Assembly: GCF_028737315.1 (NCBI RefSeq)
Contig: NZ_JAQZAO010000010.1
Span: forward strand, 1-64,000
DNA from: Actinomycetospora lemnae
GTDB taxonomy: Bacteria; Actinomycetota; Actinomycetes; Mycobacteriales; Pseudonocardiaceae
Reading direction: 5' to 3'
DNA length: 64,000 nt
The position numbers and the translations under genes are program-made. Position 1 is the stretch's first letter. Each line of letters opens with the position of its first letter. Below the pieces are notes generated by a model. The model was not told the origin of the DNA, ran no database searches, and worked only from the letters and a program-made list of their open reading frames with translations. Below are positions 1,897 to 63,990 of this stretch, piece by piece.

Positions 1897-1910
1897 GGGC
1901 CCTCCGGCCC
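1897..1910. promoter_or_regulatory. DosR-like box, exact match
   Basis: GGGCC-CTCC-GGCCC followed by T fits GGGNC-N4-GNCCC exactly. It lies 36 nt before the CBS gene start (1946) and 110 nt before the divergent gene start (1787). Confidence 0.65.
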
Positions 1911-1945
1911 TGCTCGCACCGATCGCGCCCGACGACCGTCGGGTC

Positions 1946-2404
1946 ATGACCACGCCGCCCGTGACCACCGCGACCAGCGCCGCGAGCGCCCCGCCCGAGG
2001 CCCTCGACGACGACCAGCCGGTGGGTTTCCTCATGGGTCCGCTCGCGCCGCTCGAGGTGCCGGCCACCACCCGGGTGAGCACCGCCCTGCACCGGCTGCG
2101 CGCGCTCGGCACCGACCACCTGGTGGTCCGCGGGCACGGGCCGGTGCGGGCCGTGAGCGAGGTCGACCTCCTGCGCCACCTGCTCGACGGCGGGGCCCGA
2201 CCCGCACGTCAGCTGGACACGGTCGGCGCGCTCGCGACGCGCGTGCCGACGGTCGCGCCCACGGTGCGCCGGTCGCGGGCCGCGGAGCTGATGCTCGCCG
2301 AGGGCCACGCGCTGCTGATCGTCGTCGCCGACGGCGAGCCGTGCGGCGTCCTCGACGCCCGGACGCTGCTGCGCAGCGTGGCGGAGCGCTTCCGCCGGCG
2401 GTGA
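1946..2404 (+). CDS. CBS-domain protein
   Basis: 152 aa, soluble. After a ~28-residue Ala/Thr-rich leader it carries two CBS-like repeats (about residues 30-80 and 90-148), seen as two beta-alpha-beta units ending VVRGHGPVRAVSEVDLLRHLL and LIVVADGEPCGVLDARTLLRSV. Stand-alone CBS pairs usually bind adenosyl ligands and sense energy state. No catalytic domain is attached. A DosR-like box lies 36 nt upstream of the ATG, close enough to cover a promoter or imply a very short leader. Confidence 0.75.
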   Translation: MTTPPVTTATSAASAPPEALDDDQPVGFLMGPLAPLEVPATTRVSTALHRLRALGTDHLVVRGHGPVRAVSEVDLLRHLLDGGARPARQLDTVGALATRVPTVAPTVRRSRAAELMLAEGHALLIVVADGEPCGVLDARTLLRSVAERFRRR

Positions 2405-2405
2405 C

Positions 2406-2443
2406 CCCCTGGCGGTTCCCCGTCCCCGAGCCGCCCTCAGGGG
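2406..2443. terminator. Candidate hairpin terminator between convergent genes
   Basis: CCCCTGGCGG (2406-2415) pairs with 2431-2443 with a small bulge. It sits between the convergent ends at 2404 and 2437 and overlaps the minus-strand stop codon. Confidence 0.45.
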
Positions 2444-3231
2444 AACAGGCGGAGCGCCGCGTGCCCGACCCCGGTCTCGTGCTCCGCGGCGGCGAGCGTC
2501 GCGGCCCGGACCGCGGCGTCGTCGAAGGCCTCGACGTGCGCCTCGACCTGCAGTCCGCGCAGGGCGGCCTCGACGACCGCCCGCTCGAGCACGACGCCGG
2601 CCAGCACGGCCTCGCGCACGCCGTCGACGTGGGTGCACACCGCCAGCACGGGGTCGCGGCGCCACGGCAGATCCAGCGTGAGGGTGTCGGCCGGGACGGT
2701 CGCCGGGGTCCGCCAGGCCGGGACGCCGTCGCGGGTCGGTCCGTTGAGCAGGTGCAGCCAGGCCCCGCGGGAGGCCGCGGCGTGGGCGACGTCCACGACG
2801 CGCGACGCGTCGGCCGGCGCGGCGTAGCGCGGCGAGGCCGCACCGCCCGGGCGGCGGTCGACCCGCCGGCGGACCAGGTCCATCGGGGTCGCGGGGCGGC
2901 GCCGCGTCGCGGACACCGCGGCGAGCGGCCGCGCGTCGGCGTCGGTGGCGACGACCGTGCGGGGCGCCCACCCGAAGGAGCGCAGGGCGTTCTCCACGGC
3001 CCCGACGAGGCGGCCGGCGTGCACCAGCACGTGGTGCGCCGGGACGTCCGCCGGAGACGGGGCTCGACCGTGGAGAGCCGCCGGGTCGAGGGTGAGCTCG
3101 ACCCGGCGGTCGCGCACCGACACCGCGCACGCGGGCGCCCCCGGCTCGGCCAGGGGCTCCAGGGCGTGCAGCAGGGCAGCGACCTCCGTGGGGCTCCACC
3201 GCTCGGACGACCGGGTACGCGTCGCGCTCAT
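2437..3231 (-). CDS. Degenerate Acg/Rv2032-like nitroreductase-fold protein
   Basis: 264 aa. Its order of elements parallels the Acg family: a helical start (VAALLHALEPL), RVELTLDP, then LVGAVENALRSFGWAPRTVVAT in the position of the family's CGAALHHLRLALAARGW segment, then an RRRPATPMDLVRRRVDRRP block. The family's FMN-binding S-x-x-N-(T/S)-Q-P-W motif, intact in the paralogues at 25912 and 34273, is missing, and the C-terminal half is short. It may have lost flavin binding or be a decoy/partner subunit. It is divergent from the CBS-Usp gene at 3360 and shares an intergenic box. Confidence 0.6.
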   Translation of the reverse strand: MSATRTRSSERWSPTEVAALLHALEPLAEPGAPACAVSVRDRRVELTLDPAALHGRAPSPADVPAHHVLVHAGRLVGAVENALRSFGWAPRTVVATDADARPLAAVSATRRRPATPMDLVRRRVDRRPGGAASPRYAAPADASRVVDVAHAAASRGAWLHLLNGPTRDGVPAWRTPATVPADTLTLDLPWRRDPVLAVCTHVDGVREAVLAGVVLERAVVEAALRGLQVEAHVEAFDDAAVRAATLAAAEHETGVGHAALRLFP

Positions 3232-3287
3232 GCCTGGACCGTGCCCGGGTGCGCGGGCGCGCCCCAGGGCCGGACGTCACCGTCGTC

Positions 3288-3301
3288 GGGCCCTCCGTGC
3301 C
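3288..3301. promoter_or_regulatory. DosR-like box, one mismatch
   Basis: GGGCC-CTCC-GTGCC lies between divergent genes starting at 3231 and 3360, 57 and 58 nt away. Confidence 0.45.
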
Positions 3302-3359
3302 CCCGGCACCCGGTCCGGTGGCCCTGCCGCGGCCGTGGGAACCCTCGGACGATCGCGGC

Positions 3360-4944: not shown

Positions 4945-5025
4945 TGATCATGAGCGGGCCCGCCCCGGCACCGTTCCTGCCGATCCCCGCGTCCGGTGCG
5001 GGGCAGGACGCGGGAGGCCCCCGAG

Positions 5026-6426
5026 ATGGCGCTGGACCTGGCGCGCTGGCAGTTCGGCGTGACGACCGTCTACCACTTCCTGTTCGTGCCGCTGACGATC
5101 GGCCTGTCGCTGCTGGTCGCGGGCATGCAGACCGCCTGGGTCCGCACCGGCGACGAGCGCTGGCTGCGGATGACGAAGTTCTGGGGCAAGCTCTTCCTGA
5201 TCAACTTCGCCATGGGCGTGGTGACCGGGATCGTCCAGGAGTTCCAGTTCGGGATGAACTGGAGCGACTACAGCCGCTTCGTCGGCGACGTCTTCGGGGC
5301 ACCGCTGGCGATCGAGGGGCTGCTCGCCTTCTTCCTCGAGTCGACCTTCCTCGGCCTGTGGATCTTCGGGTGGGGCCGGCTGCCGAAGAAGGTGCACCTG
5401 GCCACCATCTGGGCCGCCGCGATCGGCACCCTGCTCTCGGCCTACTTCATCCTCGCGGCCAACTCGTGGATGCAGCACCCGGTCGGGTCCTGGGTCAACC
5501 CGGTCACCGGGCGCGCCGAGCTCACCGACTTCGGCGCGGTCCTGACGAACTCCACCGCGGTCGGCGCCTTCACCCACACCATCACCGCGGCGTTCCTCAC
5601 CGCCGGCATGTTCGTCCTGGGCATCTCGGCCTGGCACCTGGCGCGGGGGAACGAGACGCGGGTGTTCCGCTCCTCGCTGCGCCTGGCGCTGGTGACCGTG
5701 CTCGTCGCCGGCGTCGGCACGGTGGTCACCGGCGACGTGCAGGCCCGCCTCATGACCGAGCAGCAGCCGATGAAGATGGCCGCCGCCGAGGCCCTGTGGG
5801 ACACGAGCTCGCCGGCGTCGTTCTCGCTGTTCACCATCGGCAGCCTCGACGGCTCGCAGGAGGTCTGGAGCGTCCGCGTGCCGAAGGTGCTCTCCTTCAT
5901 GGCCACCGGTGACCCCGACGGCACGGTCGAGGGGATCAACGACGTCCAGCGGGCCTCCGAGGCGCAGTTCGGACCGGGCGACTACCGGCCCAACGTGCCC
6001 GTCGCCTACTGGACCTTTCGCGTCATGATCGGCTTCGGCGCCCTCGCGATGCTCCTCGCGCTGGCCGGTCTGTGGCTGCAGCGCGGGGGTCGCGTGCCCG
6101 CGTCGCGGTGGTTCACCTGGGCGGCGCTGGCCGGCATCGGGTTCCCGGTCGTCGCCAACGCCGTCGGCTGGATCTTCACCGAGATGGGCCGCCAGCCGTG
6201 GGTCGTGTACGGCACCCTGCGGACCGCCGACGGCGTCAGCCCCTCGGTCGGCGCCGCCACCGTCGCCACCTCGCTGATCGTGTTCACCGTGCTCTACGGC
6301 GTGCTCGCCGTGGTCGAGGTGACCCTGCTCGTCCGCTACGCCCGCAAGGGGCCCGACCCCCTGCCCTCGCCCGACGAGGACGCGCCGAGCACGCCGGCGC
6401 CGCGTCCGCTCGCCGTCGCGTACTGA
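5026..6426 (+). CDS. cydA: Cytochrome bd ubiquinol/menaquinol oxidase subunit I
   Basis: 466 aa integral membrane subunit of the bd-type terminal oxidase, which oxidises quinol and reduces O2 at high affinity. The haem ligands are recognisable: His17 (VYHFLFVPLT), His184 (GAFTHTITAAF) and Met387 within GWIFTEMGRQPW, the CydA hallmark. The ATG at 5026 follows GGGAGG. The Q-loop looks short, as in Gram-positive CydA. It is first in a cydA-cydB-cydDC operon, 31 nt before cydB. Confidence 0.97.
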   Translation: MALDLARWQFGVTTVYHFLFVPLTIGLSLLVAGMQTAWVRTGDERWLRMTKFWGKLFLINFAMGVVTGIVQEFQFGMNWSDYSRFVGDVFGAPLAIEGLLAFFLESTFLGLWIFGWGRLPKKVHLATIWAAAIGTLLSAYFILAANSWMQHPVGSWVNPVTGRAELTDFGAVLTNSTAVGAFTHTITAAFLTAGMFVLGISAWHLARGNETRVFRSSLRLALVTVLVAGVGTVVTGDVQARLMTEQQPMKMAAAEALWDTSSPASFSLFTIGSLDGSQEVWSVRVPKVLSFMATGDPDGTVEGINDVQRASEAQFGPGDYRPNVPVAYWTFRVMIGFGALAMLLALAGLWLQRGGRVPASRWFTWAALAGIGFPVVANAVGWIFTEMGRQPWVVYGTLRTADGVSPSVGAATVATSLIVFTVLYGVLAVVEVTLLVRYARKGPDPLPSPDEDAPSTPAPRPLAVAY

Positions 6427-6457
6427 CCCCCGGCGACCCGGGAGAAGTGAGGACATC

Positions 6458-7507
6458 GTGTTCGGCCTCGCGCTGACCGACATCTGGTTCCTGCTCATCG
6501 CCCTGCTCTGGACGGGCTACTTCGTCCTCGAGGGCTTCGACTTCGGCGTCGGCGCCCTGCTGACCCTGCTGGGCCGCGACGAGGTCGACCGCCGCCGGGT
6601 CGTCAACACCATCGGCCCGCTCTGGGACGGCAACGAGGTGTGGCTGCTCGTGGCCGGCGGCGCGACCTTCGCGGCGTTCCCCGAGTGGTACGCGAGCCTG
6701 TTCTCGGGGTTCTACCTGGCGCTGCTGGTGCTGCTGGTCGCCCTCATCGGACGCGGGGTGGCCTTCGAGTACCGCGGGAAGGTCGACGACGACACGTGGC
6801 GCCGACGGTGGGACGCCGTCATCGTCGCGACCTCGGCGATCCCCGCGCTGCTGTGGGGCGTGGCGTTCGCCAACATCGTCGCGGGGGTCCCGCTCGACGC
6901 CCAGCACGAGTACACCGGCACGCTGCTGACGCTGCTCAACCCCTACGCGCTGCTCGGCGGCCTGACCACGCTGCTCGTGTTCCTGCTCCACGGCGCGGTG
7001 TTCGTCGCGCTGAAGACCGACGGCGAGCTGCGCCGGCGGGCCCACCGCCTGGCCCTGCGCCTCGGGCTGGGCGCGGTGCCGGTGGCCGCCGGCTTCCTGG
7101 TCTGGACCGAGCTCGCCCACGGCGGCGGCTGGACGTGGATCAGCGCGGTCGTCGCGGCCGTGGCCCTCGTCGGCGCGGTCCTGCTGGTCGGGCGGCAGCG
7201 CGAGGGCTGGGCGTTCACGCTGACCGCGGCGACGATCGTGGCCACGACGGTGACGCTGTTCGGCTCCCTCTACCCCGCGGTCCTGCCGTCGTCCACCGAC
7301 CCGGCCGGCACGCTCACGACGACCAACGCCGCCTCGACGCCGTACACGCTGCAGATCATGACCTGGGTCGCGCTCGCGGTGACCCCGGTCGTGCTGGCCT
7401 ACCAGGCCTGGAGCTACTGGGTGTTCCGCCGGCGCCTGACCCGCGACGACATCCCGCCGGCCACCGGCCTGCCCCCGCGCGAGCGGCGGCCGCGGGTGCC
7501 GCGGTGA
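6458..7507 (+). CDS. cydB: Cytochrome bd oxidase subunit II
   Basis: 349 aa with about eight to nine predicted membrane helices. The N-terminus (WFLLIALLWTGYFVLEGFDFGVGAL) and GPLWDGNEVWLLVAGGATFAAFPEWYA are CydB hallmarks. It partners CydA in the quinol oxidase. The start is GTG. Its stop overlaps the start of cydDC (GTGA at 7504-7507), indicating translational coupling. Confidence 0.97.
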   Translation: MFGLALTDIWFLLIALLWTGYFVLEGFDFGVGALLTLLGRDEVDRRRVVNTIGPLWDGNEVWLLVAGGATFAAFPEWYASLFSGFYLALLVLLVALIGRGVAFEYRGKVDDDTWRRRWDAVIVATSAIPALLWGVAFANIVAGVPLDAQHEYTGTLLTLLNPYALLGGLTTLLVFLLHGAVFVALKTDGELRRRAHRLALRLGLGAVPVAAGFLVWTELAHGGGWTWISAVVAAVALVGAVLLVGRQREGWAFTLTAATIVATTVTLFGSLYPAVLPSSTDPAGTLTTTNAASTPYTLQIMTWVALAVTPVVLAYQAWSYWVFRRRLTRDDIPPATGLPPRERRPRVPR

Positions 7508-10500
7508 AGCCGCTGGACCCCCGCCTGCTGCGCCACGTCCGCCCGGCCCGCACCTTTGTGGTGCTCGCGGCCGCGGCGGGCGTGGCCACGGCCGGGCTGG
7601 TCGTCGTCCAGGCGGACCTGCTCTCGCGGGTGGTGGCCCGGGCGTTCCTGGACGGCGCGCCGCTCGCGGCCCTGACGACCCTGCTGGCGGGCCTCGTCGT
7701 CGTGGTCGCCGGGCGGGCGCTGCTGGCATGGGCCACCGAGGCCGCCGCCGTGCGGGCGAGCGCCCGCGTGATCGGGCAGCTGCGGGCCGACCTCGTCGAC
7801 CTCGTCCTGCGACTCGGCCCGCGCGACCCCCGCCTGCCCTCGACCGGCGAGCTCGGGACGCTCGCCACCCGCGGGATCGACGCCCTCGACGGCTACCTGC
7901 GCCGCTACCTGCCCACCCTGCTGCTGGCCACGACGGTCCCGCTGCTGGTCGGGGTGCGGCTGCTGACCGCCGACTGGCTCTCCGCGGTGATCGTGGCCGT
8001 CACCGTGCCCCTGATCCCCCTGTTCATGGTCCTGGTCGGCCTGCGCACCCGCGACGACACGGCGCGGCGCTGGCGGGCCCTCGCGGTGCTGGGCCACCAC
8101 TTCCTCGACCTCGTCGCCGGCCTCGACGTGCTGGTCGCCTTCGGTCGCGCCGGCGCCCAGGCCGGGCGGCTGCGCGCCGTCGCCGCCGAGTACCGGCGGG
8201 CCACGATGCGGACGCTGCGGGTGGCCTTCCTGTCCGCGCTGGTGCTCGAGGTGCTGGCGACGCTCTCGGTCGCCCTGGTCGCGGTGTCGGTGGGCCTGCG
8301 CCTGGCCGAGGGTCGCCTCGACCTCGCCACCGGGCTGCTGGTGATCATGCTGGCGCCGGAGATCTACCTGCCGCTGCGCGCGGTCGGCGCCCGGTTCCAC
8401 GACAGCGCCGAGGGCCTGGCCGCCGCCGACGAGGTGTTCGCGGTGCTGGGGACGGAGCCGGCGGGCCCGGGGGGCGCCCGCCGGCCCGCGCCCGACCCGT
8501 CGCGGGTCCCGGTGCACCTCGAGCGGGTCGGCGTCGACGGACGCAGCGGCCCCGTGCTCGACGACCTCTCCCTGACCGTGGCCCCCGGCGAGGTCGTCGG
8601 GCTGCGCGGCCCGAGCGGCGCGGGCAAGTCGACGCTGCTCGACCTGGTCACGGGCCTGCGTCGCCCCGACCGCGGCCGGGTGCTCGTCGGCGGGGTCCCG
8701 CTCGACGAGCTCGACCCCGCCGCCTGGCGCGCCCGGATCGCGTGGGTGCCGCAGCGACCCGTGCTCGTCGCGGGCACGGTCGCCGACAACGTCCGCCTCG
8801 GCGCCCCCGAGGCTCCCGACGCGGCGGTCGCCCGCGCCGTCCGGGTCGCCCGCGTCGACCTGGCGCTCGACGCCCCCGTCGGCGAGCGGGGCGCGGGGCT
8901 CTCCACCGGTCAGCAGCGCCGTGTCGCCCTGGCCCGCGCGCTGCTCGCCGACCGTCCCCTGGTCCTGCTCGACGAACCCACCGAGGGCGTCGACGCGGAG
9001 ACCGAGGCGGCCCTGCTGGCGTCCCTGCCCCACGCCCTCGCCGGCCGCAGCGCGATCGTCGTCAGCCACCGCCCCGACGTCCTCGCCGCCTGCGACCGGG
9101 TCGTCGACCTCGCCGGCCTCCTCACGGCCCCTGCCGCTGTCCCTGCCGCTGTCCCTGCCGCTGCCCCGACGACTGCCCCGACGGCGCCGCGGTCCGCGGC
9201 CGGACCGTCGCCGGCGGCCGAGGAGCACGACGCGCCGACGCCCGCCGCCGGTCGTGGGTCGGGTGCGCTGCGGTGGTTCGCCGCCGCCGCCCGCCCCCGC
9301 GCGGGCCGGCTCGCGGTCGCGGTCCTGCTCGGCGCCGGGGCGCTGGGCAGCGCGGTGGCGCTGACCGCCACGTCCGCGTGGCTGATCTCCGCGGCCGCGC
9401 TGCAGCCGCCGCTGCTGACGCTGATGGTCGCGATCGTCGCGGTGCGCGCGTTCGGGCTGGCCAAGGGCGTCCTGCGCTACCTCGAGCGGCTGGCGTCCCA
9501 CGACGCCGCCCTGCGCCTCGGCGCCGACCTGCGCGTGCGGGTCTGGCGGGCCCTCGTGCGCCGCGGCCCGGCGGCGACCGCCGCGCAGCGCCGCGGCGAT
9601 CTGCTGTCCCGCCTCACCGGCGACGTCGACGCCCAGCAGGACGTGCTGATCCGGACCGTCGTGCCCGCGGCGTCCGCGCTGCTCGTCGGCGCCGCGCTGG
9701 TCGGTCTGTTCACCGTCCTGCTCCCCGAGGCCGGCCTCGCCCTCGCGCTGGGCCTGCTCCTCGCGGGCGTCGTCGCCCCGCTGCTCGGCGTCCTCGCCGG
9801 CCGGCGCGCCGCGCGGACGACCGCCACGGCCCGTGCCGCGGTGGCCACCGGCACCCTCGAGCTGCTCGACGGTGCCGCCGACCTCCTCGTCCTGGGTGCC
9901 GCGGACCGTCGCCGTCGCCGGCTCGCCGCCCACGACACCGAGCTCGCCGGCCGTCTGGTGTCGCAGGCGGGTGGAGCGGGCGTCGGCGCGGGCCTCGGGG
10001 TCCTCGGGCTGGGTCTCGCGATGGTCGCCGCGACGGTCCTCGGCGTGCTCGCGCTGACCGACGGCCGGCTGGCGCCGACGGCCCTCGCGGTCCTGGCGCT
10101 CACGCCGCTGGCCGCCGCCGAGCTCGTCGCCGGGCTGCCCGACGCCGCGACGCGTCTCGCCGAGGCGGTCCCGGCCACCCGCCGGCTCGCCGGGCTCGAG
10201 GCGGCGCCCGCGCCCGTCGTCGACCCGCGCCGACCCGCGGCCGTGCCGGCCGACCCGGTCGTGGCGGCCGAGCAGCTCGCCGTCCGCTGGCCGGACGCGA
10301 CACGCGAGGCGGTCAGCGGGGTGTCGTTCGCGCTCCCGCCCGGCGAGCGGATGGTGCTCGCCGGCCCGTCGGGCGCAGGCAAGAGCACGGTGCTCGCCGC
10401 GGTCCTGCGCACCCTGGCGGCGGCCCGCGGCGCGGTCACCCTCGACGGCCGCGACACCGCGACCATGGCGGCCGAGGACGTGCGCGCCCACATCGCGTGG

Positions 10501-10962
10501 TGCGGGCCGGCCGCGCACCTGTTCGACAGCACGCTGCGGGAGAACCTGCGCCTCGCCCGGCCCGCGGCGACCGACGAGGAGCTCGTCGACGCCCTGCGGC
10601 GCGCCCGTCTCGGCGGGTGGTTCGCGTCGCTGCCCGCGGGGCTCGACACGCCGCTGGGCGAGCACGGCGGCCCGGTGTCCGGGGGCGAGCGCCAGCGGCT
10701 CGCGGTGGCCCGGGTGCTGCTCGCCGACCGCCCCGTGCTCGCCCTCGACGAGCCCACCGCCCACCTGGACGCGCCCACGGCCACGGCGCTCGCCGGTGAG
10801 ATCGGCGAGATGAGCCGCGGCCGGACGACCATCGTCGTCTCCCACCGACCGGCGGAGTTCCCGGACCTGCCCGTGGTCACGATCGGGGCGACGCGTGACG
10901 GGTCGGCCGGGCGCCGACGGGCGGCCTCGCCGCTCGCCGCCGTCACGCGAGGGCGTCGATGA
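7504..10962 (+). CDS. cydDC: Fused CydD-CydC thiol/haem ABC exporter
   Basis: 1152 aa. Two complete ABC half-transporters are fused: CydD (TMD about 1-310, NBD about 340-540) and CydC (TMD about 600-860, NBD about 915-1130). Walker A GPSGAGKST occurs near residues 369 and 954; signatures are LSTGQQRR and VSGGERQR; Walker B runs LVLLDEPT and LALDEPT. CydDC exports cysteine/glutathione-type thiols and is needed to assemble cytochrome bd. The two halves are joined by an Ala/Pro/Thr linker that holds a short DNA repeat. Fusion is usual in actinobacteria. The 3' end overlaps convergent ackA by 20 nt. Confidence 0.95.
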   Translation: MKPLDPRLLRHVRPARTFVVLAAAAGVATAGLVVVQADLLSRVVARAFLDGAPLAALTTLLAGLVVVVAGRALLAWATEAAAVRASARVIGQLRADLVDLVLRLGPRDPRLPSTGELGTLATRGIDALDGYLRRYLPTLLLATTVPLLVGVRLLTADWLSAVIVAVTVPLIPLFMVLVGLRTRDDTARRWRALAVLGHHFLDLVAGLDVLVAFGRAGAQAGRLRAVAAEYRRATMRTLRVAFLSALVLEVLATLSVALVAVSVGLRLAEGRLDLATGLLVIMLAPEIYLPLRAVGARFHDSAEGLAAADEVFAVLGTEPAGPGGARRPAPDPSRVPVHLERVGVDGRSGPVLDDLSLTVAPGEVVGLRGPSGAGKSTLLDLVTGLRRPDRGRVLVGGVPLDELDPAAWRARIAWVPQRPVLVAGTVADNVRLGAPEAPDAAVARAVRVARVDLALDAPVGERGAGLSTGQQRRVALARALLADRPLVLLDEPTEGVDAETEAALLASLPHALAGRSAIVVSHRPDVLAACDRVVDLAGLLTAPAAVPAAVPAAAPTTAPTAPRSAAGPSPAAEEHDAPTPAAGRGSGALRWFAAAARPRAGRLAVAVLLGAGALGSAVALTATSAWLISAAALQPPLLTLMVAIVAVRAFGLAKGVLRYLERLASHDAALRLGADLRVRVWRALVRRGPAATAAQRRGDLLSRLTGDVDAQQDVLIRTVVPAASALLVGAALVGLFTVLLPEAGLALALGLLLAGVVAPLLGVLAGRRAARTTATARAAVATGTLELLDGAADLLVLGAADRRRRRLAAHDTELAGRLVSQAGGAGVGAGLGVLGLGLAMVAATVLGVLALTDGRLAPTALAVLALTPLAAAELVAGLPDAATRLAEAVPATRRLAGLEAAPAPVVDPRRPAAVPADPVVAAEQLAVRWPDATREAVSGVSFALPPGERMVLAGPSGAGKSTVLAAVLRTLAAARGAVTLDGRDTATMAAEDVRAHIAWCGPAAHLFDSTLRENLRLARPAATDEELVDALRRARLGGWFASLPAGLDTPLGEHGGPVSGGERQRLAVARVLLADRPVLALDEPTAHLDAPTATALAGEIGEMSRGRTTIVVSHRPAEFPDLPVVTIGATRDGSAGRRRAASPLAAVTRGRR
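9128..9165 (+). repeat. 12-bp tandem repeat in the CydD-CydC linker
   Basis: About three copies of a CCTGCCGCTGTC unit encode the (A)AVP linker between the two transporter halves. The repeat is in frame, so copy-number change would alter linker length only. Confidence 0.6.
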
Positions 10963-12052
10963 CCTCACGGGCGATGACGAGGTCCTCACGGGCGTGCACC
11001 ACCACCGTGCGCGCCGTCGCGCCGGGCGCCGACACGTCGCCCTCCGCGCCGTCGACCGCCGCCGCGTCGGCGCGCGGGTCGACGGCGAGGCCGAGGAAGC
11101 CGAGCCCCTCGACCACGCGGCGTCGCAGCACCGGGGCGTTCTCCCCAACCCCGCCGCTGAACACCAGCACGTCGACCCCGCCGCAGGCCGCCGCCATCGC
11201 CGCGAGCTGCCCGCGGGCCCGGTGCACCCAGACGTCGACGGCGAGCTGCGCGTCCGGTTTTCCCGCCTCGCCGGCGGCGAGCACGCGCCGCATGTCGGCC
11301 TCCCCGGCGAGGCCCACCAGGCCCGAGGCGTGGTCGAGGGCGTGGTCGACCTCGGCGGTCGGCACGTCGGCGTGGAGCGTCAGCCACGCCACCGCCGACG
11401 GGTCGAGGTCGCCGCACCGCGTCGCCATCACCAGCCCGGCCGTGGGCGTGAACCCCATCGTCGTGTCCACCGAACGGCCGCCGCGGACCGCGCAGGCCGA
11501 GGCGCCGGAGCCGAGGTGTGCCACGACCACCCGGAGCTCGTCGAGCGGCCGGCCGACGATCTCCGCCGCCCGCGTCGAGCCCCACGCGTGCGCGAGCCCG
11601 TGGAACCCGTACTTGCGCATCCCGTGCTCGGCGCGCCAGGTCGCGGGCACCGCGTAGGTGCTCGCCGCGGCCGGCATCGTCGCGTGGAAGGCCGTGTCGA
11701 AGCAGGCCACCGACGGCACGTCCGGCAGCGCCTCGGCCACCGCGCGCAGGCCCGCGACGGCGGGCGGCTGGTGCAGCGGGGCGAGCACGGTGAGGCGGGC
11801 GATCCGCGCGAGCACGTCCCCGGCGACGACCACCGGCGCGGTGAAGTCGGCACCTCCGTGCACCACCCGGTGCCCCACGGCGTCCACGCCGCCGGCCGCC
11901 CGGGCGAGCCGGTCGACGGCGTCCTCGAGCGCGCCCTCGGCCGGTCGCCCGCGCGGGGCGTCGAGGTCGGTTCGGTGCGTCACCACGCCCTCGGGCTCGA
12001 CCACGCGCAGCTTGACACTGCTCGACCCCGCGTTGACGACGAGGACCCGCAT
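10943..12052 (-). CDS. ackA: Acetate kinase
   Basis: 369 aa, slightly shorter than the usual ~400. Interconverts acetyl phosphate + ADP and acetate + ATP. Family motifs are all present: NAGSSSVKLRV at the start, HRVVHGG, FDTAFHATMP, YGFHGLAH, HLGSGASACAV and FSGGVGENAP. The start ATG (12050-12052) overlaps the phosphoketolase stop as TGATG, so the two are translationally coupled and form a route from xylulose-5-P/fructose-6-P through acetyl-P to ATP. The gene end overlaps cydDC by 20 nt on the opposite strand. Confidence 0.95.
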   Translation of the reverse strand: MRVLVVNAGSSSVKLRVVEPEGVVTHRTDLDAPRGRPAEGALEDAVDRLARAAGGVDAVGHRVVHGGADFTAPVVVAGDVLARIARLTVLAPLHQPPAVAGLRAVAEALPDVPSVACFDTAFHATMPAAASTYAVPATWRAEHGMRKYGFHGLAHAWGSTRAAEIVGRPLDELRVVVAHLGSGASACAVRGGRSVDTTMGFTPTAGLVMATRCGDLDPSAVAWLTLHADVPTAEVDHALDHASGLVGLAGEADMRRVLAAGEAGKPDAQLAVDVWVHRARGQLAAMAAACGGVDVLVFSGGVGENAPVLRRRVVEGLGFLGLAVDPRADAAAVDGAEGDVSAPGATARTVVVHAREDLVIAREVIDALA

Positions 12053-14571
12053 CAGCCCGGTCGCCCCGCGCCCGCGTCCTCCCGGACGTCGGCCAGCGGG
12101 TCGTGCTGGTCGGGGCCGACGCGGACGTCGTCGGGGAAGTCCGACGCGGTGTCCGCGGACGCGCCGGGCCGTCCCGCCCGCCCGTCCGGATCCCCGGAGC
12201 CCGTCCACACCCAGTCCCGCACGTCGGGCCGGTCCTCCCCGTGGCGGCGGGTGTACTCGCGGCAGGCGAGCCGCTCGTCGGCCATCCGCTGGCGCAGCCC
12301 GGCGTGGCGCACCCCCAGCCCCGGCACCCGGTCGATCACGTCCATGACCAGGTGGAAGCGGTCGAGGTCGTTGAGCATCACCATGTCGAAGGGCGTCGTG
12401 GTCGTGCCCTCCTCCTTGTAGCCGCGCACGTGCAGGTTGGCGTGGCCGGTGCGGCGGTAGGTCAGCCGGTGGATCAGCCAGGGGTAGCCGTGGTAGGCGA
12501 AGATGATCGGCTTGTCCGGCGTGAACAGGGCGTCGAACTCCCGGTCGGGCAGCCCGTGCGGGTGCTCGGTCGGGTCCTGGAGCCGCATGAGGTCCACGAC
12601 GTTGACCACACGCACCTCGAGGTCGGGCAGGTGGCGGCGCAGCAGGTCGACCGCGGCGAGGGTCTCCAGCGTCGGGACGTCCCCGGCGCACGCCAGCACG
12701 ACGTCGGGCTCGGCGGAGTCGTCGTTGCTGGCCCACTCCCACACCCCGAGCCCGCGGGTGCAGTGCGCGACCGCCTCGTCCATCCCCAGCCACTGCGGCG
12801 CGGGCTGCTTGCCGGCGACGATGACGTTGACGTAGTCCCGGGTGCGCAGACAGTGGTCGGCGGTGGAGAGCAGGGTGTTCGCGTCCGGCGGCAGGTACAC
12901 CCGCACGAGCTCGGCCTTCTTGTTCACCACGTGGTCGATGAAGCCCGGATCCTGGTGGGAGAAGCCGTTGTGGTCCTGGCGCCACACGTGCGAGGTGAGC
13001 AGGTAGTTCAGCGAGCCGATCGGCCGCCGCCACGGGATGTCCCGGGTGACCTTCAGCCACTTGGCGTGCTGGTTGAGCATCGAGTCGACGATGTGGATGA
13101 ACGCCTCGTAGCAGGTGAACAGCCCGTGTCGCCCGGTGAGCAGGTAGCCCTCCAGCCAGCCCTGACACATGTGCTCCGACAGCATCTCCACGGCGCGGCC
13201 CGTCGGGGCCAGGTGGTCGTCACCGTCGACGATCTCCCCGTCGAACTGCCGGTCGGTGACCGCGAAGACGTCCTGCAGGCGGTTGGAGGCGATCTCGTCG
13301 GGCCCGAAGACGCGGAAGTTCTCGGGGTTCTGCCGCACGACCTCCCGGATCCAGCCGCCCATCACGCGGGTGGCCTCCGCGACGGGCCCGCCGGGGCGGT
13401 CCACCGCGACGCCGTGGTCGCGGAAGTCGGGCAGGCGCAGGTCACGCAGCAGCTCGCCGCCGTTGGCGTGGGGCGTGGCGCTCATCCGCCGATCGCCGCC
13501 GGGGTGCAGGTCGGCGAGCTCGGGACGCAGCCGGCCGTCGTCGTCGAAGAGCTCCTCGGGCCGGTAGGAGCGCATCCACTGCTCGAGCTGCGCCCGGTGC
13601 TCCGCGTTGTCGCGGGTCCCGGCCAGCGGCACCTGGTGCGCCCGGTAGGTGCCCTCGACCCGTTGCCCGTCGACCTCGCGGGGCCCGGTCCAGCCCTTCG
13701 GCGTGCGCAGGACCAGCATCGGCCAGCGCGGGCGCGGCACCTCGCGGCCGGCGGCCTCGGCCTCGGCGGCCTCGCGACGGATGCGGGCGATCTCGTCGAC
13801 GATCTCGTCCATCGTGTCGGCCATCCGCCGGTGCACCGCCGCGTGGTCCTCGTCGAGACCGGCCTCGACGACGGAGGGCCGGTAGCCGTAGCCCGTGAAC
13901 AGCGCGAGCAGCTCGTCGTCGGGGATGCGCGCCAGCACCGTCGGGTTCGCGATCTTGTAGCCGTTGAGGTGCAGGACCGGCAGCACCGTGCCGTCGTGGA
14001 CGGGGTGGCAGAACTTGTTCGCGTGCCACGCGGTGGCCAGCGGCCCGGTCTCGGCCTCGCCGTCCCCGACGACGCAGGCCACGAGCAGGTCGGGGTTGTC
14101 GAAGACGGCGCCGTAGGCGTGGGCCAGGGAGTAGCCCAGCTCGCCGCCCTCGTGGATCGAGCCCGGGGTCTCGGGCGCGACGTGGCTCGGGATACCGCCG
14201 GGGTAGGAGAACTGGCGGAACAGCGTCCGCATCCCCTCCTCGTCGGCGGTGACGTGGGAGTACCGCTCGGAGTAGGTCCCCTCGAGGTAGGCGGCGGCGA
14301 CCACCGCCGGACCGCCGTGGCCGGGCCCCGAGACGAACAGCGGGTCGAACTCACCGCGTCGGGCCACGCGGTTGAGGTGGGCCCATAGGAAGGTCTGGCC
14401 CGGCGTGGTCCCCCAGTGGCCGAGGAGACGAGGCTTCACGTGGTCCGCGGCCAACGGTTCGCGCAGCAACGGGTTGTCCCGCAGGTAGATCTGGCCCACG
14501 GCCAGGTAGTTCGCCGCACGCCACCAGGCGTCCAGCAGGGACAGGTCGGATCGGTCGTCGCTCATCGCCAC
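12052..14571 (-). CDS. xfp: Xylulose-5-phosphate/fructose-6-phosphate phosphoketolase
   Basis: 839 aa, TPP-dependent. Cleaves X5P or F6P with phosphate to acetyl phosphate plus GAP or E4P. Visible family motifs: [27 protein letters not shown], the TPP-binding [19 protein letters not shown], and [21 protein letters not shown]. The C-terminus has about 45 extra Asp/Gly-rich residues. The start may be GTG at 14571 or the internal ATG at 14565. It lies between a small gene (26 nt upstream) and ackA and would give oxygen-independent substrate-level ATP. Confidence 0.95.
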
Positions 14572-26913: not shown

Positions 26914-31512
<4,599 letters not shown>

Positions 31513-52580: not shown

Positions 52581-52617
52581 GGGACCTCCGACTCGGCCGC
52601 GACGGGACCCGAGGCCC
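52581..52617. promoter_or_regulatory. DosR-like box pair, 23 bp apart
   Basis: A-GGGAC-CTCC-GACTC (52581-52594, one mismatch) and GGGAC-CCGA-GGCCC (52604-52617, exact) lie 62 nt from the DUF1918 start (52519) and 69 nt before the VOC gene (52686). Confidence 0.65.
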
Positions 52618-55755: not shown

Positions 55756-55769
55756 GGGCCGTCCGCCCC
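55756..55769. promoter_or_regulatory. DosR-like box, exact match
   Basis: GGGCC-GTCC-GCCCC followed by T lies 60 nt upstream of the proteasome-activator start at 55829. Confidence 0.65.
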
Positions 55770-56839: not shown

Positions 56840-57307
56840 TCAGCCCTTCTCGATCGGGATGGTCGTGGGCTCGGGGCCCTTCTCCACCGCGGGCATCGGG
56901 ATCCGGACCGTGAGCATGCCGTCGGTGTAGGACGCCGTCACGGCCGCCGGGTCCACCCCCTCCGGCAGGGGCAGGCGGCGGGCGAAGGTCCCGTAGCGCA
57001 GCTCGTGCCGGTGGTAGCCCTTGTCCTCGGTGTCCTCGGTGATCCTGCGCTCGGCACGCAGGTCGAGGAGCCCGTTGTCGATGGTCAGACGCAGGTCCTT
57101 CTCCGGGTCGATGCCCGGGATCTCCGCCTTGATCACGAGGTCGCCGTCCTCGCGGTACTCGTCGACCTTGATGATCTCCTCGGGGGCCTGCATCGCGGGC
57201 CGGTCCCACATGCGGGCCGGGAACGCCCGCATCCAGTCGTCGAACATGCGGTCGAACTGCCGGAAGACGTCGCCCGAGGTCATGGGCGCGCGTCGGGTGA
57301 TTGCCAT
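56840..57307 (-). CDS. Small heat-shock protein Hsp20/alpha-crystallin
   Basis: 155 aa, ATG behind GGAGG. N-terminal Phe/Arg/Met-rich segment (DVFRQFDRMFDDWMRAFPARMW), alpha-crystallin domain about 45-140 (IKVDEYREDGDLVIKAEIPGIDPEKDLRLTIDNGLLDLRAERR, YGTFARRLPLPEGVD) and the C-terminal IxI/V-type TTIPIEKG. ATP-independent holdase; the mycobacterial counterpart HspX/Acr is a hallmark DosR target. An exact box sits 50 nt upstream. Confidence 0.95.
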   Translation of the reverse strand: MAITRRAPMTSGDVFRQFDRMFDDWMRAFPARMWDRPAMQAPEEIIKVDEYREDGDLVIKAEIPGIDPEKDLRLTIDNGLLDLRAERRITEDTEDKGYHRHELRYGTFARRLPLPEGVDPAAVTASYTDGMLTVRIPMPAVEKGPEPTTIPIEKG

Positions 57308-57356: not shown

Positions 57357-57370
57357 GGGACGAACGGCCC
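57357..57370. promoter_or_regulatory. DosR-like box, exact match
   Basis: A-GGGAC-GAAC-GGCCC lies 50 nt upstream of the hsp20 start (57307) and 106 nt before the divergent pseudokinase gene. Confidence 0.72.
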
Positions 57371-59998: not shown

Positions 59999-60012
59999 GG
60001 GTCCTTGGGCCC
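59999..60012. promoter_or_regulatory. DosR-like box, exact match
   Basis: A-GGGTC-CTTG-GGCCC lies 36 nt upstream of the hibernation-factor start (59963). A 3-nt-spacer variant (GGGAC-GGT-GACCC) is at 59967-59979. Confidence 0.7.
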
Positions 60013-60062
60013 GGTGCCCCGTCCCGGGCGCACGGGCCGGGAGCGGGTCGGAGGACCCGGGG

Positions 60063-62408
60063 TCAGTCCCGGCCCCGGACGCTCCCCCGCGCGGCGTCGA
60101 GCAGCACCCGCCGCTCGGCGTGCCCGATCGCGGCCCGGACCGCGTCGACGGCGTGCGGGTCCACCGACACCGCGTCGATCCCCGCCCGGACCAGCACCTC
60201 GACGAACTCCGGCCGGCGCGTCGGCGCCTGGCCGCACAGCGACGTCGGCACCCCGCGGCCCCGCGCGGTCGCGATGATCCGCTCGATGGCGTCGACCACG
60301 GCGGCGTCGCCCTCGTCGTACACCTCGGCACAGCGCTCGCTGTCCCGGTCGACCCCGAGCATCAGCTGGGTGAGGTCGTTGCTACCGATCGAGACCCCGT
60401 CGATGCCGGCGGCGAGGTACTCCGGCAGCCGGTACACGACCGAGGGCACCTCGGCGGTCAGCCACCGCTGCAGGCCGCGCTGTCGCCCGAGCGGTCCGGC
60501 GTCGACGATCTCGAGGCACGCCTCGAGCTCCCAGCGCGTCCGGACGAACGGCAGCATCACGTGCAGGTTCGGCGACTGCTCCCGGACGCGGGCGAGGGCG
60601 CGCAGCTCGAGCGCGAACACCTCCGGCTCGCGCAGGTACCGGTAGGCGCCCCGGAAGCCGATCATCGGGTTGCTCTCCACCGGCTCGTGCCGGTCGCCCC
60701 CGACCAGCCCCCGGAACTCGTTGCTGCGCAGGTCGGTGGTCCGGTAGAGCACGGGGCGCGGGGCGAACGCCCGGGCGATCGTCCCGACCGAGGCGGCGAC
60801 CTGGTCGACGAACGCCTCCTGGTCCCCGCGGGCCACCACCTCCCGCGGGTGCACCCCGCCGAGCGCCGCCGTCAGGAGGAACTCGGCGCGGAGCAGCCCG
60901 ACGCCGTCCACGCCGGGCCGGGCCGCGACGCGCTCGGCCGCCTCGGGCAGCGCGAGGTTGACGTGGACCTCCGTGCCGAGCGCGGCGACCCCACCGCCCG
61001 GCACCTCCGGGGCGGCGCCGGCCGCACCCGCCGGGCGCGTGAGCGCGCCGGCGGGCCGGGTGGCGACGACGCCCGTGCCCGCGCCGTCGGTGTCGACCGC
61101 GCCGGCGAGGACCTCGCCGGTGCTGCCGTCGACGGTGACGACCCGCCCGTCGGTCAGCACGCTCGTGCCCTCGCGGGTGCCGACGACGCAGGGCACGCCC
61201 AGCTCGCGCGCCGCGATCGCGGCGTGGCACGTCGCGCCCCCGGTGTCGGTGACGATCGCGCCGGCGCGGCGCAGGGTGGGCAGCCAGTCGGGGTTGGTCA
61301 GCGGGGCGACGAGCACCTCGCCCGGCTGCAGCGCGGCGCCCTCGTCGGGCGTGCGCAGGACCCGGACCCGCCCCGTGACGCGCCCCGGTGTCGCCGGGAG
61401 GCCGCGCAGCAGGGCCGCGGCGGCGCCGCGCGAGCCGTCGTCGAGCCCGGTCGTGACCGGGCGGGCCTGGACGAGCCACAGGCGCTCGCCGGCGAACGCC
61501 CACTCCACGTCCTGGGGCCGCCCGTAGTGGGCCTCCACGCGGCGGGCGAGGGCCGCGACCGCGACGATCTCGTCGGGTCGCAGGACGGGCGCGGCCCCGC
61601 GTTCAGCGTCGAGGGGCACCGTGAGGTCGGCGCCGTCGGGCCCTCGGACGACCTGGTGGGTCTGGGTGCCGACGCGCATCGAGCGCAGCCGCCCGTCCCC
61701 GTCGACCTCGTAGGTGTCCGGCTCGACCGTGCCGCCGACCACGACCTCGCCCTGGCCGAACGCCGCCTCGATCAGCACGCGTCCGCGCTCGCCGGTGCGG
61801 GGGTCGGCGGTGAACGCGACGCCCGCGCGGTCGGCGGGCACCATCGCCTGCACCACGACCGCGATGGCCGGCTCGCTCCGGAACCCGCGGGCCGCGCGGT
61901 AGGCGACGACCCGCGCGCCGAACAGCGACGCCCAGCAGTCCACGATCCGCCGCGCCAGCTCGTCGCCGTCACGGACGTTGGTGAACGAGGCGTTCATGCC
62001 GGCGAAGGACGCCTGCGCGCCGTCCTCGCCGACCGCCGACGAGCGCACCGCGACCACGGGCTCGCCCAGGGCCTTCCACGCCGCGTGGACGTGCTCGGCG
62101 AGCGCCGGGGGCATCCCCGCCGCGCGGACGCGGTCGGCGAGCGCCGCGCAGAGGTCGGGCAGGCGGTCGGCCGGCGCCTCGAGCGCCTCCGCGTGCCCGG
62201 CCGCGAGCGCGGCGCGCGCACCGGCGGCCTCCATCGCCGACCGGTAGCCGTCGGCCGGGAGGACGAACCCGTCGGGGACGGGGAAGCCCGCGGCGATCAG
62301 CTCACCGAGGTGGGCGGCCTTGCCCCCGACCTCCTCGGCGTCGGTGGCGCGCAGGTCGCCCAGGGGCCGCACGACGCCCGTCGCCGGCCGCTCGGTGGTG
62401 GTGCTCAA
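60063..62408 (-). CDS. ppsA: Phosphoenolpyruvate synthase
   Basis: 781 aa, normal length. Pyruvate + ATP + H2O to PEP + AMP + Pi. N-terminal ATP-grasp (EVGGKAAHLGELIAAGFPVPDGFVL, VAVRSSAVGEDGAQASFAGMNASF), swivelling domain with phospho-His395 (DTGGATCHAAIAARELGVPCVVGT), C-terminal TIM barrel (GVGLLRAEFLL, GSNDLTQLMLGVDRDSE, SLCGQAP with the acid/base Cys). The start is TTG at 62408, supported by GGGAGGACA upstream and alignment of the N-terminus. It would recycle pyruvate into gluconeogenesis. Confidence 0.93.
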   Translation of the reverse strand: MSTTTERPATGVVRPLGDLRATDAEEVGGKAAHLGELIAAGFPVPDGFVLPADGYRSAMEAAGARAALAAGHAEALEAPADRLPDLCAALADRVRAAGMPPALAEHVHAAWKALGEPVVAVRSSAVGEDGAQASFAGMNASFTNVRDGDELARRIVDCWASLFGARVVAYRAARGFRSEPAIAVVVQAMVPADRAGVAFTADPRTGERGRVLIEAAFGQGEVVVGGTVEPDTYEVDGDGRLRSMRVGTQTHQVVRGPDGADLTVPLDAERGAAPVLRPDEIVAVAALARRVEAHYGRPQDVEWAFAGERLWLVQARPVTTGLDDGSRGAAAALLRGLPATPGRVTGRVRVLRTPDEGAALQPGEVLVAPLTNPDWLPTLRRAGAIVTDTGGATCHAAIAARELGVPCVVGTREGTSVLTDGRVVTVDGSTGEVLAGAVDTDGAGTGVVATRPAGALTRPAGAAGAAPEVPGGGVAALGTEVHVNLALPEAAERVAARPGVDGVGLLRAEFLLTAALGGVHPREVVARGDQEAFVDQVAASVGTIARAFAPRPVLYRTTDLRSNEFRGLVGGDRHEPVESNPMIGFRGAYRYLREPEVFALELRALARVREQSPNLHVMLPFVRTRWELEACLEIVDAGPLGRQRGLQRWLTAEVPSVVYRLPEYLAAGIDGVSIGSNDLTQLMLGVDRDSERCAEVYDEGDAAVVDAIERIIATARGRGVPTSLCGQAPTRRPEFVEVLVRAGIDAVSVDPHAVDAVRAAIGHAERRVLLDAARGSVRGRD

Positions 62409-62453
62409 CGCTGTCCTCCCGGGTCGTGGGCGGCACCCCGCGGCGGCCGCCCG

Positions 62454-62882
62454 TCAGGGCGCGGCCGCCGGCGCGGCGCCCTCGTCGTGGGTCGTGCCGG
62501 CGGTGTGCGGCAGGGCCTCGAGCCAGGAGACGGCCTCGTCGAAGCCGTCCTCGCCGAAGACGCGCATCGGGAAGGACACGAGGAAGCTCGCGAGGTGGGC
62601 GAACTCGTCGACCCACCTGATGTCGCTGACGAGCGCGTAGCCCTCGATGGAGCGCCACAGCCGCGGGTGGCGCATCCACGCCTCGGCCTTGCCCCACACC
62701 GCGCCGGCCGTGAAGCCCTCGTACTCCGGTCCCATCCGCAGCAGGATCCGCAGGCGACGGCCCTCGCCCTCGGCCTCGGCCAGGAGCGGCTCCACCGTCG
62801 CCGCGTAGTCGTCCGCCGAGATCCGGCCGACGGCGTCGAAGCCCGCGATCCGGTCCGGGAGCCCCGGGATCTTCCGCAACAT
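62454..62882 (-). CDS. SpoIIAA/STAS-like protein
   Basis: 142 aa, ATG behind ACAGGAGGC. The pattern VGRISADDYAATVEPLLAEAEGEGRRLRILLRMGPEYEGFTAGAVWGKAEAWMRHPRLWRSIEGYALVSDIRWV, then FPMRVFGEDGFDEAVSWLEAL is that of STAS/SEC14-like (SpoIIAA-like) single-domain proteins. Role unknown. It precedes ppsA by 45 nt, likely the same transcript. Confidence 0.85.
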   Translation of the reverse strand: MLRKIPGLPDRIAGFDAVGRISADDYAATVEPLLAEAEGEGRRLRILLRMGPEYEGFTAGAVWGKAEAWMRHPRLWRSIEGYALVSDIRWVDEFAHLASFLVSFPMRVFGEDGFDEAVSWLEALPHTAGTTHDEGAAPAAAP

Positions 62883-62970
62883 GTCCGCCTCCTGTCGTCG
62901 GGGCGGCCGCGGCCGGCAGGCGCGCCGCGACCTCGTGACGAGCCTCGGCCGCGCGGCAGGGCCCTCGGCA

Positions 62971-63003
62971 GGGTCGAACGACCGGCCGAGGGTCCCCGCG
63001 CCC
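62971..63003. promoter_or_regulatory. DosR-like boxes, one mismatch each
   Basis: A-GGGTC-GAAC-GACCG (62971-62984) and GGGTC-CCCG-CGCCC (62990-63003) start 19 bp apart, 89 nt upstream of the SpoIIAA-like start (62882). Confidence 0.5.
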
Positions 63004-63019
63004 GGGGACCTCCGGTCCG

Positions 63020-63802
63020 TCAGCCGGCGGCGCCGGCCGGCACCTCGCCGTCCCGACGCGCGTCCTCCTCGGCGGCCCAGGCGATCGCCGCGTCCAGGTC
63101 CGCGGACGGGAAGTGGCGGACGACCGGGTGCAGCGCCCTGTCGGCGATCGTCGCGCCCACGGTGGGGACGGTGCCGTCGACGGCGAGCGCCAGCCGCCGG
63201 ATGCGGCGCTGGTGCCCCGCCACGAAGCCGAGGTGGCGCCACAGCGCGGCGACGTTCTCCCAGCCCGGCACGCCGGGTGCGTGCAGGACCAGGCCGCGCA
63301 GCTCCGGTGTGGTCCCCAGCTGCTCGTCGACGACGGCGGCGAGGGCGTCGATGTCGGCGGCCTGCAGCGGGCGGTCGGCCTCGACCACGACCACGCCGGT
63401 CCCGGGTCCGGTCCGCGTCCGGATGCGGGGCGCCTCGGGCAGGGAAAGCAGCCACGCCACGGCGTCCTCGCGCTCGGCGATGCCGAACACGCGCAGCGGG
63501 TACGGCACCGCGAAGGCGGCGAGACGGCACGCGGTGCGGATCCAGGAGACGTCGGTGACGACCGCGCACGCCGCGAAGCGCCCGATCGCGCGCACGCCGA
63601 GCCGGAGGTCCTCCCACAGCGCCGGCGGGGTGAGCCCGGTGTAGTCGTCCTCGACCTGGCAGAGGATGCGCATCCGGCGGTCCGTGCGCTCGGTCTCCTG
63701 CAGCATCGGGAGCACGACCCGGTCGTACTCGCCGCGGGTCAGCACCCCCGCTGCGCGGACGGCGACGATCTCGGGCGGCACGTCGGTCATCTTCTCGAGC
63801 AC
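63020..63802 (-). CDS. Tandem SpoIIAA/STAS-like protein
   Basis: 260 aa from a GTG at 63802 with GAGGAGGAA upstream. Two SpoIIAA-like domains: about 1-125 (GVLTRGEYDRVVLPMLQETERTDRRMRILCQVEDDYTGLTPPALWEDL) and about 130-240 (ADIDALAAVVDEQLGTTPELRGLVLHAPGVPGWENVAALWRHLGFVAGHQRRIRRLALAVDG). The first is close to the single-domain protein at 62454. Function unknown. Confidence 0.82.
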   Translation of the reverse strand: MLEKMTDVPPEIVAVRAAGVLTRGEYDRVVLPMLQETERTDRRMRILCQVEDDYTGLTPPALWEDLRLGVRAIGRFAACAVVTDVSWIRTACRLAAFAVPYPLRVFGIAEREDAVAWLLSLPEAPRIRTRTGPGTGVVVVEADRPLQAADIDALAAVVDEQLGTTPELRGLVLHAPGVPGWENVAALWRHLGFVAGHQRRIRRLALAVDGTVPTVGATIADRALHPVVRHFPSADLDAAIAWAAEEDARRDGEVPAGAAG

Positions 63803-63902
63803 GGTTCCTCCTCGACCGGTCAGCGGGCCCGGTGGCGGGTCGCCCGTCGGCCAGCCCACCGCGGAGAGCGGTCGGAGCCAGGGGCGGTCGGGCCCCGATC
63901 GG

Positions 63903-63990
63903 GCGCCGAAGGGCCCGGGAGGGAAGGGCGAGGGGCCGATGGTCCCGGGCCGGCGCGACCAGTCGGGCGGACGGCCGGTCCCTCCGACCC
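63903..63990. promoter_or_regulatory. Cluster of three DosR-like boxes at right edge
   Basis: GCGCC-GAAG-GGCCC (63903-63916, one mismatch), GGGCC-GATG-GTCCC (63933-63946, exact) and GGTCC-CTCC-GACCC (63977-63990, one mismatch). The region upstream of 63802 runs to the window edge without a gene and probably serves a further divergent gene. Confidence 0.6.

Follow-up and report, generated by a model that had tools for sequence, protein, structure and literature searches.

Why does one G/C-rich palindrome, GGGNC-N4-GNCCC, recur between the genes of a single region of the Actinomycetospora lemnae genome? The window, by which we mean the whole 64,000-nucleotide stretch analysed here (C1:1-64000), belongs to a genome of 6.06 Mb in 30 contigs with 77.4% G+C. 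An original prediction had listed 16 copies of the palindrome and likened them to the DosR box. We found that the motif is real and lies far above chance. The boxes are very probably operators of a DevR (DosR/OsdR)-type response regulator, encoded at C1:74091-74732, and would serve a low-oxygen or dormancy programme fed by the sensor kinase DevS.

The motif is enriched in the intergenic DNA of one region

Genes were called with a purpose-built GC-frame scorer. The control set comprised 20 stretches of 20 kb from the same genome, chosen by position ahead of any motif count in them. GGGNC-N4-GNCCC is present at each of the 16 listed starts, and all 16 are intergenic given an Hsp20 start at 57307. 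The stated total of exactly 16 was an undercount, as the window holds 24 matches, 19 intergenic and 5 coding (18012, 26172, 35249, 41560 and 55021). The intergenic matches absent from the list are at 16243, 60007 and 60045. The intergenic DNA, put at about 4.9 kb, came to about 5.25 kb by our gene calls, and to 40.35 kb in the control set.

Exact intergenic matches occurred at 3.52/kb in the window (18 in 5.1 kb, counted before the Hsp20 start was corrected; 19 in 5.25 kb afterwards) and at 2.52/kb in C1:64-107 kb (16 in 6.3 kb). The density was 0.17/kb both in C1:107-144 kb (1 in 5.8 kb) and in the control (7 in 40.35 kb), about one twentieth of that in the window. In coding DNA it was 0.09-0.16/kb in all four sets. 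An equal intergenic density elsewhere in the genome had been named as the result that would speak against the motif; the comparison was run on the 20 control stretches and the claim survived it. The enrichment extends to about C1:107 kb, and most sites found lie in one island of ~107 kb, with probable satellites elsewhere.

At 77% G+C a GC-rich palindrome could be expected by chance, and dinucleotide shuffles of the whole window gave 16.6 +/- 4.5 matches compared to the 24 seen, with at least 24 in 4 of 100 shuffles. However, no such excess was found in the control intergenic DNA, with other spacers or with other arms. In the window's intergenic DNA, spacers 0-3 and 5-12 gave 0-6 matches each and the 15 other G/C arm permutations gave 0-7 each; of all the variants tried, the combination of spacer 4 with these arms is the only one enriched. 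Together with the conservation of the devR box across species, the spacer counts in relatives and the PWM scores described below, this makes the probability of a chance origin negligible.

We also counted CAGGGMC-N4-GKCCC genome-wide in 18 genomes of the genus, with the backward pattern as control. The counts were (pattern/control):

devR separate from devS: G000 44/37, G001 36/28, G003 40/40, G004 38/36, G007 35/36, G012 30/41, G015 25/35
devSR operon: G002 32/47, G006 20/45, G008 22/50, G009 27/50, G016 28/34
without devR: G005 24/37, G013 21/49, G017 17/54
drafts: G010 7/33, G011 23/35, G014 7/23

These counts tend in the expected direction, but the coding background dominates and they overlap too much to be of use.

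Shape of the box and spacing of second sites

The 35 aligned intergenic sites of the island gave the consensus CAGGGMC-SNNS-GKCCCG, with A/C at position 0, A/C favoured at position 4 and G/C at positions 6 and 9. A frequent flanking A...T had been thought to extend the core to 16 bp. We rejected this two-sided extension: A on the left or T on the right is present in 25 of the 35 sites, both in only one.

Many similar cores in one region might also stem from a dispersed repeat, REP-like or part of a mobile element. Conservation ends at the box, as the 5-6 bases on its flanks carry 0.01-0.11 bit per position, and such an origin is highly unlikely. Inverted G/C repeats with a loop of four bases can moreover fold, so that the sites could be read as RNA hairpins, i.e. 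terminators or attenuators, instead of operators. The N4-N11 pair is Watson-Crick in only 9 of the 35 sites, which disfavours an RNA stem. The sites furthermore lie upstream of start codons, many of them in divergent gaps, and their second sites show helical spacing, which leaves the hairpins a very small probability.

When the island and its relatives were pooled, second sites peaked at 21-23 bp from a strong site, with 47 counts of which 28 fell at 22 bp (pairs of strong sites are counted twice), compared to 0-5 counts per offset at 15-20 and 24-29 bp. In this island alone, 9 second sites lie 21-23 bp away where 1.9 would be expected, and 8 lie 43-45 bp away where the expectation is 1.6. Close primary and secondary sites are thus present at some promoters, by spacing windows set post hoc.

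Boxes mark about two thirds of the promoter gaps

Exact boxes were found before 24 of the window's 45 putative unit heads; the counts were 15 of 30 in C1:64-107 kb, 1 of 25 in C1:107-144 kb and 8 of 242 in the control. Allowing one mismatch makes the box a weak marker, present before 39 of 45 window heads and 80 of 242 control heads. Such copies had been described as about as numerous as the exact ones, an estimate well below the 54 that we counted in the window's intergenic DNA (control: 118 in 40.35 kb).

To score gaps we built a position weight matrix (PWM) from 175 sites in 184 gaps, taken from 17 stretches of 11 other genomes of the genus and seeded with the core from the original prediction. 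A site of at least 10 bits was found in 21 of 32 gaps in the window, 13 of 21 in C1:64-107 kb, 2 of 16 in C1:107-144 kb and 3 of 178 in the control, while stretches of two species without devR gave 2 of 26. For the island as a whole this is 34 of 53 gaps vs 3 of 178 (Fisher P 1e-23). The gap that spans the window end, with the site at 63933, was counted in neither set. At a lax threshold of 6 bits, 25 of 32 window gaps and 33 of 178 control gaps scored. With a strong site in 21 of 32 gaps, about two thirds of the promoter gaps are marked, and the statement that the motif unites nearly every transcription unit was too strong. Box centres lie 31-147 nt from the start codon, where the original prediction had given mostly 28-110 nt. 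The boxes and core matches between genes of the window are as follows.

1897..1910, box between 993-1787(-) and the CBS-domain gene 1946-2404(+); 15.5 bits
16243..16256, core match; the best PWM site of this gap is elsewhere, at 16263
19994..20007, box upstream of the universal stress protein (USP) gene 19032-19940(-)
25844..25857, box between the USP gene 25210-25746(-) and the nitroreductase-family gene 25933-26913(+)
28705..28718, box in the gap between devS(-) and 28826-31516 / 31585-32913 (+)
34154..34167, box 1 of a tandem pair between the PNPOx-like gene 33661-34083(-) and the nitroreductase-family gene 34213-35352(+)
34175..34188, box 2 of this pair, 21 bp from box 1 (34154)
39566..39579, box between 39126-39497(-) and 39676-39954(+)
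40218..40231, box upstream of the P-type cation ATPase gene 40372-43137(+); 17.8 bits, joint top PWM score in the window
46690..46703, box upstream of the USP gene 46108-46587(-)
50128..50141, box upstream of the USP gene 49566-50069(-)
51229..51242, box between 50171-51169(-), dehydrogenase-like by eye, and 51348-51599(+); a weaker second site lies 22 bp off
52604..52617, box between 52304-52519(-) and 52686-53051(+); outscored by a PWM site with its core at 52581
55756..55769, box upstream of the bacterial proteasome activator-family gene 55829-56416(+)
57357..57370, box upstream of the Hsp20 gene (-)
59999..60012, box upstream of 59094-59963(-), with an S30AE C-terminal domain, ribosome-associated; overlapped by a core match at 60007
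60045..60058, core match in the same gap as the 59999 box
63933..63946, box upstream of the SpoIIAA-like gene 63020-63802(-); the gap extends beyond the window end

The operator GGG(A/C)C-N4-G(G/T)CCC stands before genes of the kinds found in DevR regulons. A Pfam scan of 30 proteins from the window and the next 43 kb showed, besides the P-type ATPase, the proteasome activator-family protein and the S30AE protein named above and the proteins listed below, two PNPOx-like proteins, two nitroreductase-family proteins, and CBS and USP proteins in the window. In C1:64-107 kb it showed two wax-ester synthase/diacylglycerol acyltransferase (WS/DGAT) proteins, an AMP-binding ligase, a second Hsp20 and a thioredoxin. 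USPs, nitroreductase-family proteins, Hsp20, a protein like pyruvate, phosphate dikinase (PPDK) and WS/DGAT proteins together give the island a regulon-like content.

A DevR orthologue and a DevS homologue are encoded in the island

The response regulator at C1:74091-74732(-), 10 kb outside the window, has as its best PDB match the M. tuberculosis DevR chain 3c3w (residues 1-209, E 5e-88), with which it shares the helix stretch MFLAEKTVKNYVS without a difference. It keeps the phosphorylatable D54 as well as K179, K182 and N183; these last three make base contacts in M. tuberculosis DosR (PMC4082495). At E <= 1e-40, only one other protein of the source genome matched DevR, with 40% identity. 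The DevR protein is 87-90% identical to DevR of Actinomycetospora soli and A. callitridis. A DevR with 67% identity to the query was also seen in L112 (CAMCWJ010000075.1), which is filed as a metagenome-assembled genome of Bifidobacterium breve and is probably a misbinned contig.

The putative sensor is encoded within the window:

26914..28677, - strand, devS homologue with a GAF domain, a second GAF-like region, HisKA_3 and HATPase

Its residues 235-387 match the GAF chain 2vjw, and its best PDB matches are GAF-A structures, namely 2vzw (DosT) and the DevS entries 2y8h, 2y79, 4ynr and 2w3d. The protein has an HPPM His and a Tyr 22 residues further on, a spacing that corresponds to His149 and Tyr171 of DosS, the proximal His and distal Tyr (PMC4082495). 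We therefore regard it as a haem-GAF sensor kinase of the DevS/DosT type, with predicted haem binding.

Boxes, devR and devS are conserved together

We compared 18 genomes of the genus. Both genes were found in the same 13 genomes, devR with at least 84% and devS with at least 63% identity, and both were missing from G005, G011, G013, G014 and G017, of which G011 is 84% and G014 83% complete; in G010, devR is partial and lies at a contig end. The two genes are adjacent in G002, G006, G008, G009, G010 and G016, and separate here and in six other congeners. USP matches at E <= 1e-10, counted in six genomes, numbered 30 here and 22 in G001, both with separate devR, 9 in G008 with its devSR operon, and 4 each in G005, G013 and G017, all without devR. 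Across the genomes compared, the large USP gene set is present or absent along with devR and devS.

In 17 stretches around devS or devR from 11 genomes we counted 109 intergenic sites with spacer 4 vs 6-32 at spacers 0-3 and 5-10, and spacer 4 had the top count in all 17. Three stretches of two devR-less species had one intergenic spacer-4 site in 7.3 kb. Where devR is separate, in seven genomes, an exact box was found upstream of it in all seven, at 75-168 bp from the start and in diverged surroundings; in G004 the additional devR copy is likewise preceded by an exact match, at -136. Where devR directly follows devS (five genomes scored), no devR box was found, so that a box precedes devR only where devR stands apart. 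Before devS, an exact box was found in 10 of 13 devS rows, with one mismatch in G009; only the second devS copy of G016 was scored for boxes. Among the genomes with a devSR operon, the devS box is exact in G002, G006 and G008 and has the one mismatch in G009. The presence of a site before devR or devS is what predicted autoregulation would require.

In other genera, 77 of 80 fetched named loci were used, three odd bins being excluded. Sites with spacer 4 gathered around devR in Nocardia (27 vs 1-6 at other spacers), Mycobacteriaceae (40 vs 2-10) and Streptosporangiales (37 vs 2-9), counts that rest on cruder gene masks in genomes of lower G+C. Amycolatopsis has boxes around devR in small numbers.

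A probable DevR-type regulon in one island

These results suggest the following mechanism. Low oxygen (or NO/CO) would lead the haem-GAF kinase DevS to phosphorylate DevR, whose dimers would attach to CAGGGMC-N4-GKCCCG boxes. In some cases at least two such boxes, spaced by 22 or 44 bp, would be occupied on the same face of the helix. Bound DevR would switch on low-oxygen or dormancy genes, i.e. those for USPs, nitroreductase-family flavoproteins, cytochrome bd oxidase, phosphoketolase, acetate kinase, Hsp20, the ribosome-associated S30AE-type protein and wax-ester/diacylglycerol acyltransferases. The consensus, the 22/44-bp phasing and the kinase-less sensor described below can be tested directly.

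Several points weigh against this reading. The whole-window count is weak on its own because shuffles reach 24 in 4 of 100 cases, and gap limits and start codons are approximate. A strong PWM site is absent from 11 of the 32 window gaps, and the PWM, although it does not depend on the window's letters, shares its history, as the promoters used are related by descent. The spacing P values are indicative only, because the windows were chosen after the pooled data had been seen, and smaller bumps occur in the pooled spacing at 8, 12-14, 35, 44, 46 and 59-60 bp. Neither an exact nor a one-mismatch devS box was found in G003 and the second G016 copy (2 of 13 rows), and the loci of the Rhodococcus group, Lentzea, Nakamurella, Nocardiopsaceae and Xylanimonas have one site each. 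In addition, devS and devR are 45 kb apart here; adjacency is usual, and we did not take it as defining. Finally, the genome has ~50 GerE-domain matches, and another NarL-type regulator could share the sites.

This last point leads to the alternative that the boxes are operators of a different response regulator of the NarL/LuxR family, as related regulators can have similar half-sites. However, the sole close DevR homologue of the genome sits in the island behind a conserved box, its helix stretch is identical to that of 3c3w, and boxes gather around devR also in Nocardia, Mycobacteriaceae and Streptosporangiales. A different regulator is therefore highly improbable. An operator of the DosR/DevR type is supported by the nearby DevR orthologue, the haem-GAF DevS homologue in the window and the regulon-like gene content, as well as by the conserved devR box, the spacing of second sites and a published OsdR consensus.

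In mycobacteria the DevR regulon is scattered over several loci, devR and devS form one operon, and the DosR consensus is AT-centred. The system described here shares with M. tuberculosis DevR/DosR an orthologous regulator with the same contact residues, a haem-GAF sensor, and Hsp20, USP, nitroreductase and wax-ester/DGAT-type genes, whereas the spacer and position 4 of its boxes are richer in G/C. In the tgs1-Rv3131 probe of M. tuberculosis, an oligonucleotide published in PMC3029386, the P and S sites align 22 bp apart; S agrees at 5 of 8 core positions, a value also reached by chance positions in the oligonucleotide.

The proposed likeness to the DosR box holds as far as the DevR type is concerned, but the closest published match is the consensus of OsdR (SCO0204) from Streptomyces coelicolor and not the mycobacterial one. 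According to PMC5069765, OsdR has the 16-nt palindromic consensus AGGGCCGATCGGCCCT, with 43 predicted sites before 27 units. Some of these sites were proven by electrophoretic mobility shift assays, and OsdR also binds M. tuberculosis DevR targets. Its targets include genes for USP, nitroreductase and PPDK, and osdR itself has a site (same paper). The core regulon of S. coelicolor lies in one region, SCO0167-SCO0219 (same paper), and here too we find one island. The boxes here are however spread over ~107 kb and have a one-sided flank, devS and devR are 45 kb apart in contrast to the osdR-osdK operon, and there is in addition a kinase-less DevS paralogue. In the window, AGGGCC-N4-GGCCCT with at most two mismatches was found 28 times, genes included, compared to 11.4 +/- 3.3 times after shuffling, and none of 100 shuffles reached 28. 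Because the OsdR consensus and regulon are published, this is a system of an already known kind. Three features are local twists: how far the island reaches, the distance between devS and devR, and the presence of the kinase-less paralogue, which is the freshest item. The sequence alone shows that in Actinomycetospora such a regulon can be gathered into one large island. Provided that the genus is harmless, it would be well suited to work on how dormancy regulons come together and disappear. Among the literature matches listed, drawn from open-licence papers only so that absence is weak evidence, we found neither a DevR regulon of Actinomycetospora nor a kinase-less DevS paralogue described.

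A DevS paralogue without a kinase domain

Divergent from devS lie two further genes:

28826..31516, + strand, GNAT + CoA-binding/CoA-ligase/ATP-grasp protein (Pfam)
31585..32913, + strand, kinase-less DevS paralogue with two GAF domains and a DHp-like tail, without HATPase match

They are probably in one operon. In Pfam no HATPase match was found for the paralogue, and the protein ends after the DHp-like tail. It carries the haem-GAF signature. The position of its stop codon is common to the 7 closest copies, source genome included, in which the phosphoacceptor His is replaced by Ser; in G008 and G002 it is Asn. Of 9 copies, 8 keep the HPPM His and the one in G002 does not. In six comparisons with the source genome, dN/dS was 0.19-0.30. 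Matches at E <= 1e-70 were found in 13 of the 18 genomes of the genus. In two cases, G016:C14:127811-129037 and the second G007 copy (G007:C43:39702-40849), the match is in two pieces. Outside the genus, matches in 100 genomes of the family at the same threshold were at most 42% identical and lay in open reading frames (ORFs) of at least 558 aa (best 17 candidates per genome), which fits full-length kinases.

The PWM gave no box in the paralogue's own 68-bp gap, and the gene probably shares the 28705 box through the upstream gene 28826-31516. Tentatively, this DevS-derived GAF protein, having lost its ATPase domain and phosphoacceptor, might be a third player that tunes the response, a dead-kinase brake within the regulon, although we consider this rather doubtful. 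Such tuning could come about through a complex with DevS or through sequestration of the gas ligand.

Other genes of the window and boxes beyond the island

Further genes of the window are:

4996..10962, + strand, cytochrome bd subunits I and II and a double ABC transporter (CydDC-like by context)
10943..14565, - strand, acetate kinase and phosphoketolase (Pfam)
56840..57307, - strand, Hsp20 / alpha-crystallin family gene
60063..62372, - strand, phosphoenolpyruvate (PEP)-utilising enzyme (PEP synthase / PPDK-like)

The gap 4786-4995 before the cytochrome bd genes has a one-mismatch PWM site (core 4931, 15.0 bits). The 81-bp gap upstream of the PEP-utilising enzyme gene has no PWM site. Divergent to Hsp20, a + strand ORF at ~57420-58750 is protein-kinase-like by eye and would share the Hsp20 box; the minus-strand frame first called there is probably spurious. 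Very long + strand ORFs, e.g. 59232-63644, of up to 1470 aa overlap better-scoring genes on the opposite strand and are probably spurious too, given the 77% G+C.

Ten further stretches of the source genome, picked by a pattern hit, a USP match or as an extension of C1 and thus not random and outside every test, contain 15 intergenic core matches, with none in 4 of the 10. Intergenic boxes beyond the island are found at C24:366404 and C24:367018, at C14:58867, C14:60452 and C14:60517, at C7:65305 and C7:66452, at C3:116027, and at C1:175601 and C1:177225. By eye, these outlying boxes adjoin CBS-domain, PNPOx-like, phosphoribosyltransferase-like and sulfide-quinone-reductase-like genes, and those on C3 and C24 adjoin USP matches. 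The genes next to the outlying boxes are possible further members of the regulon.

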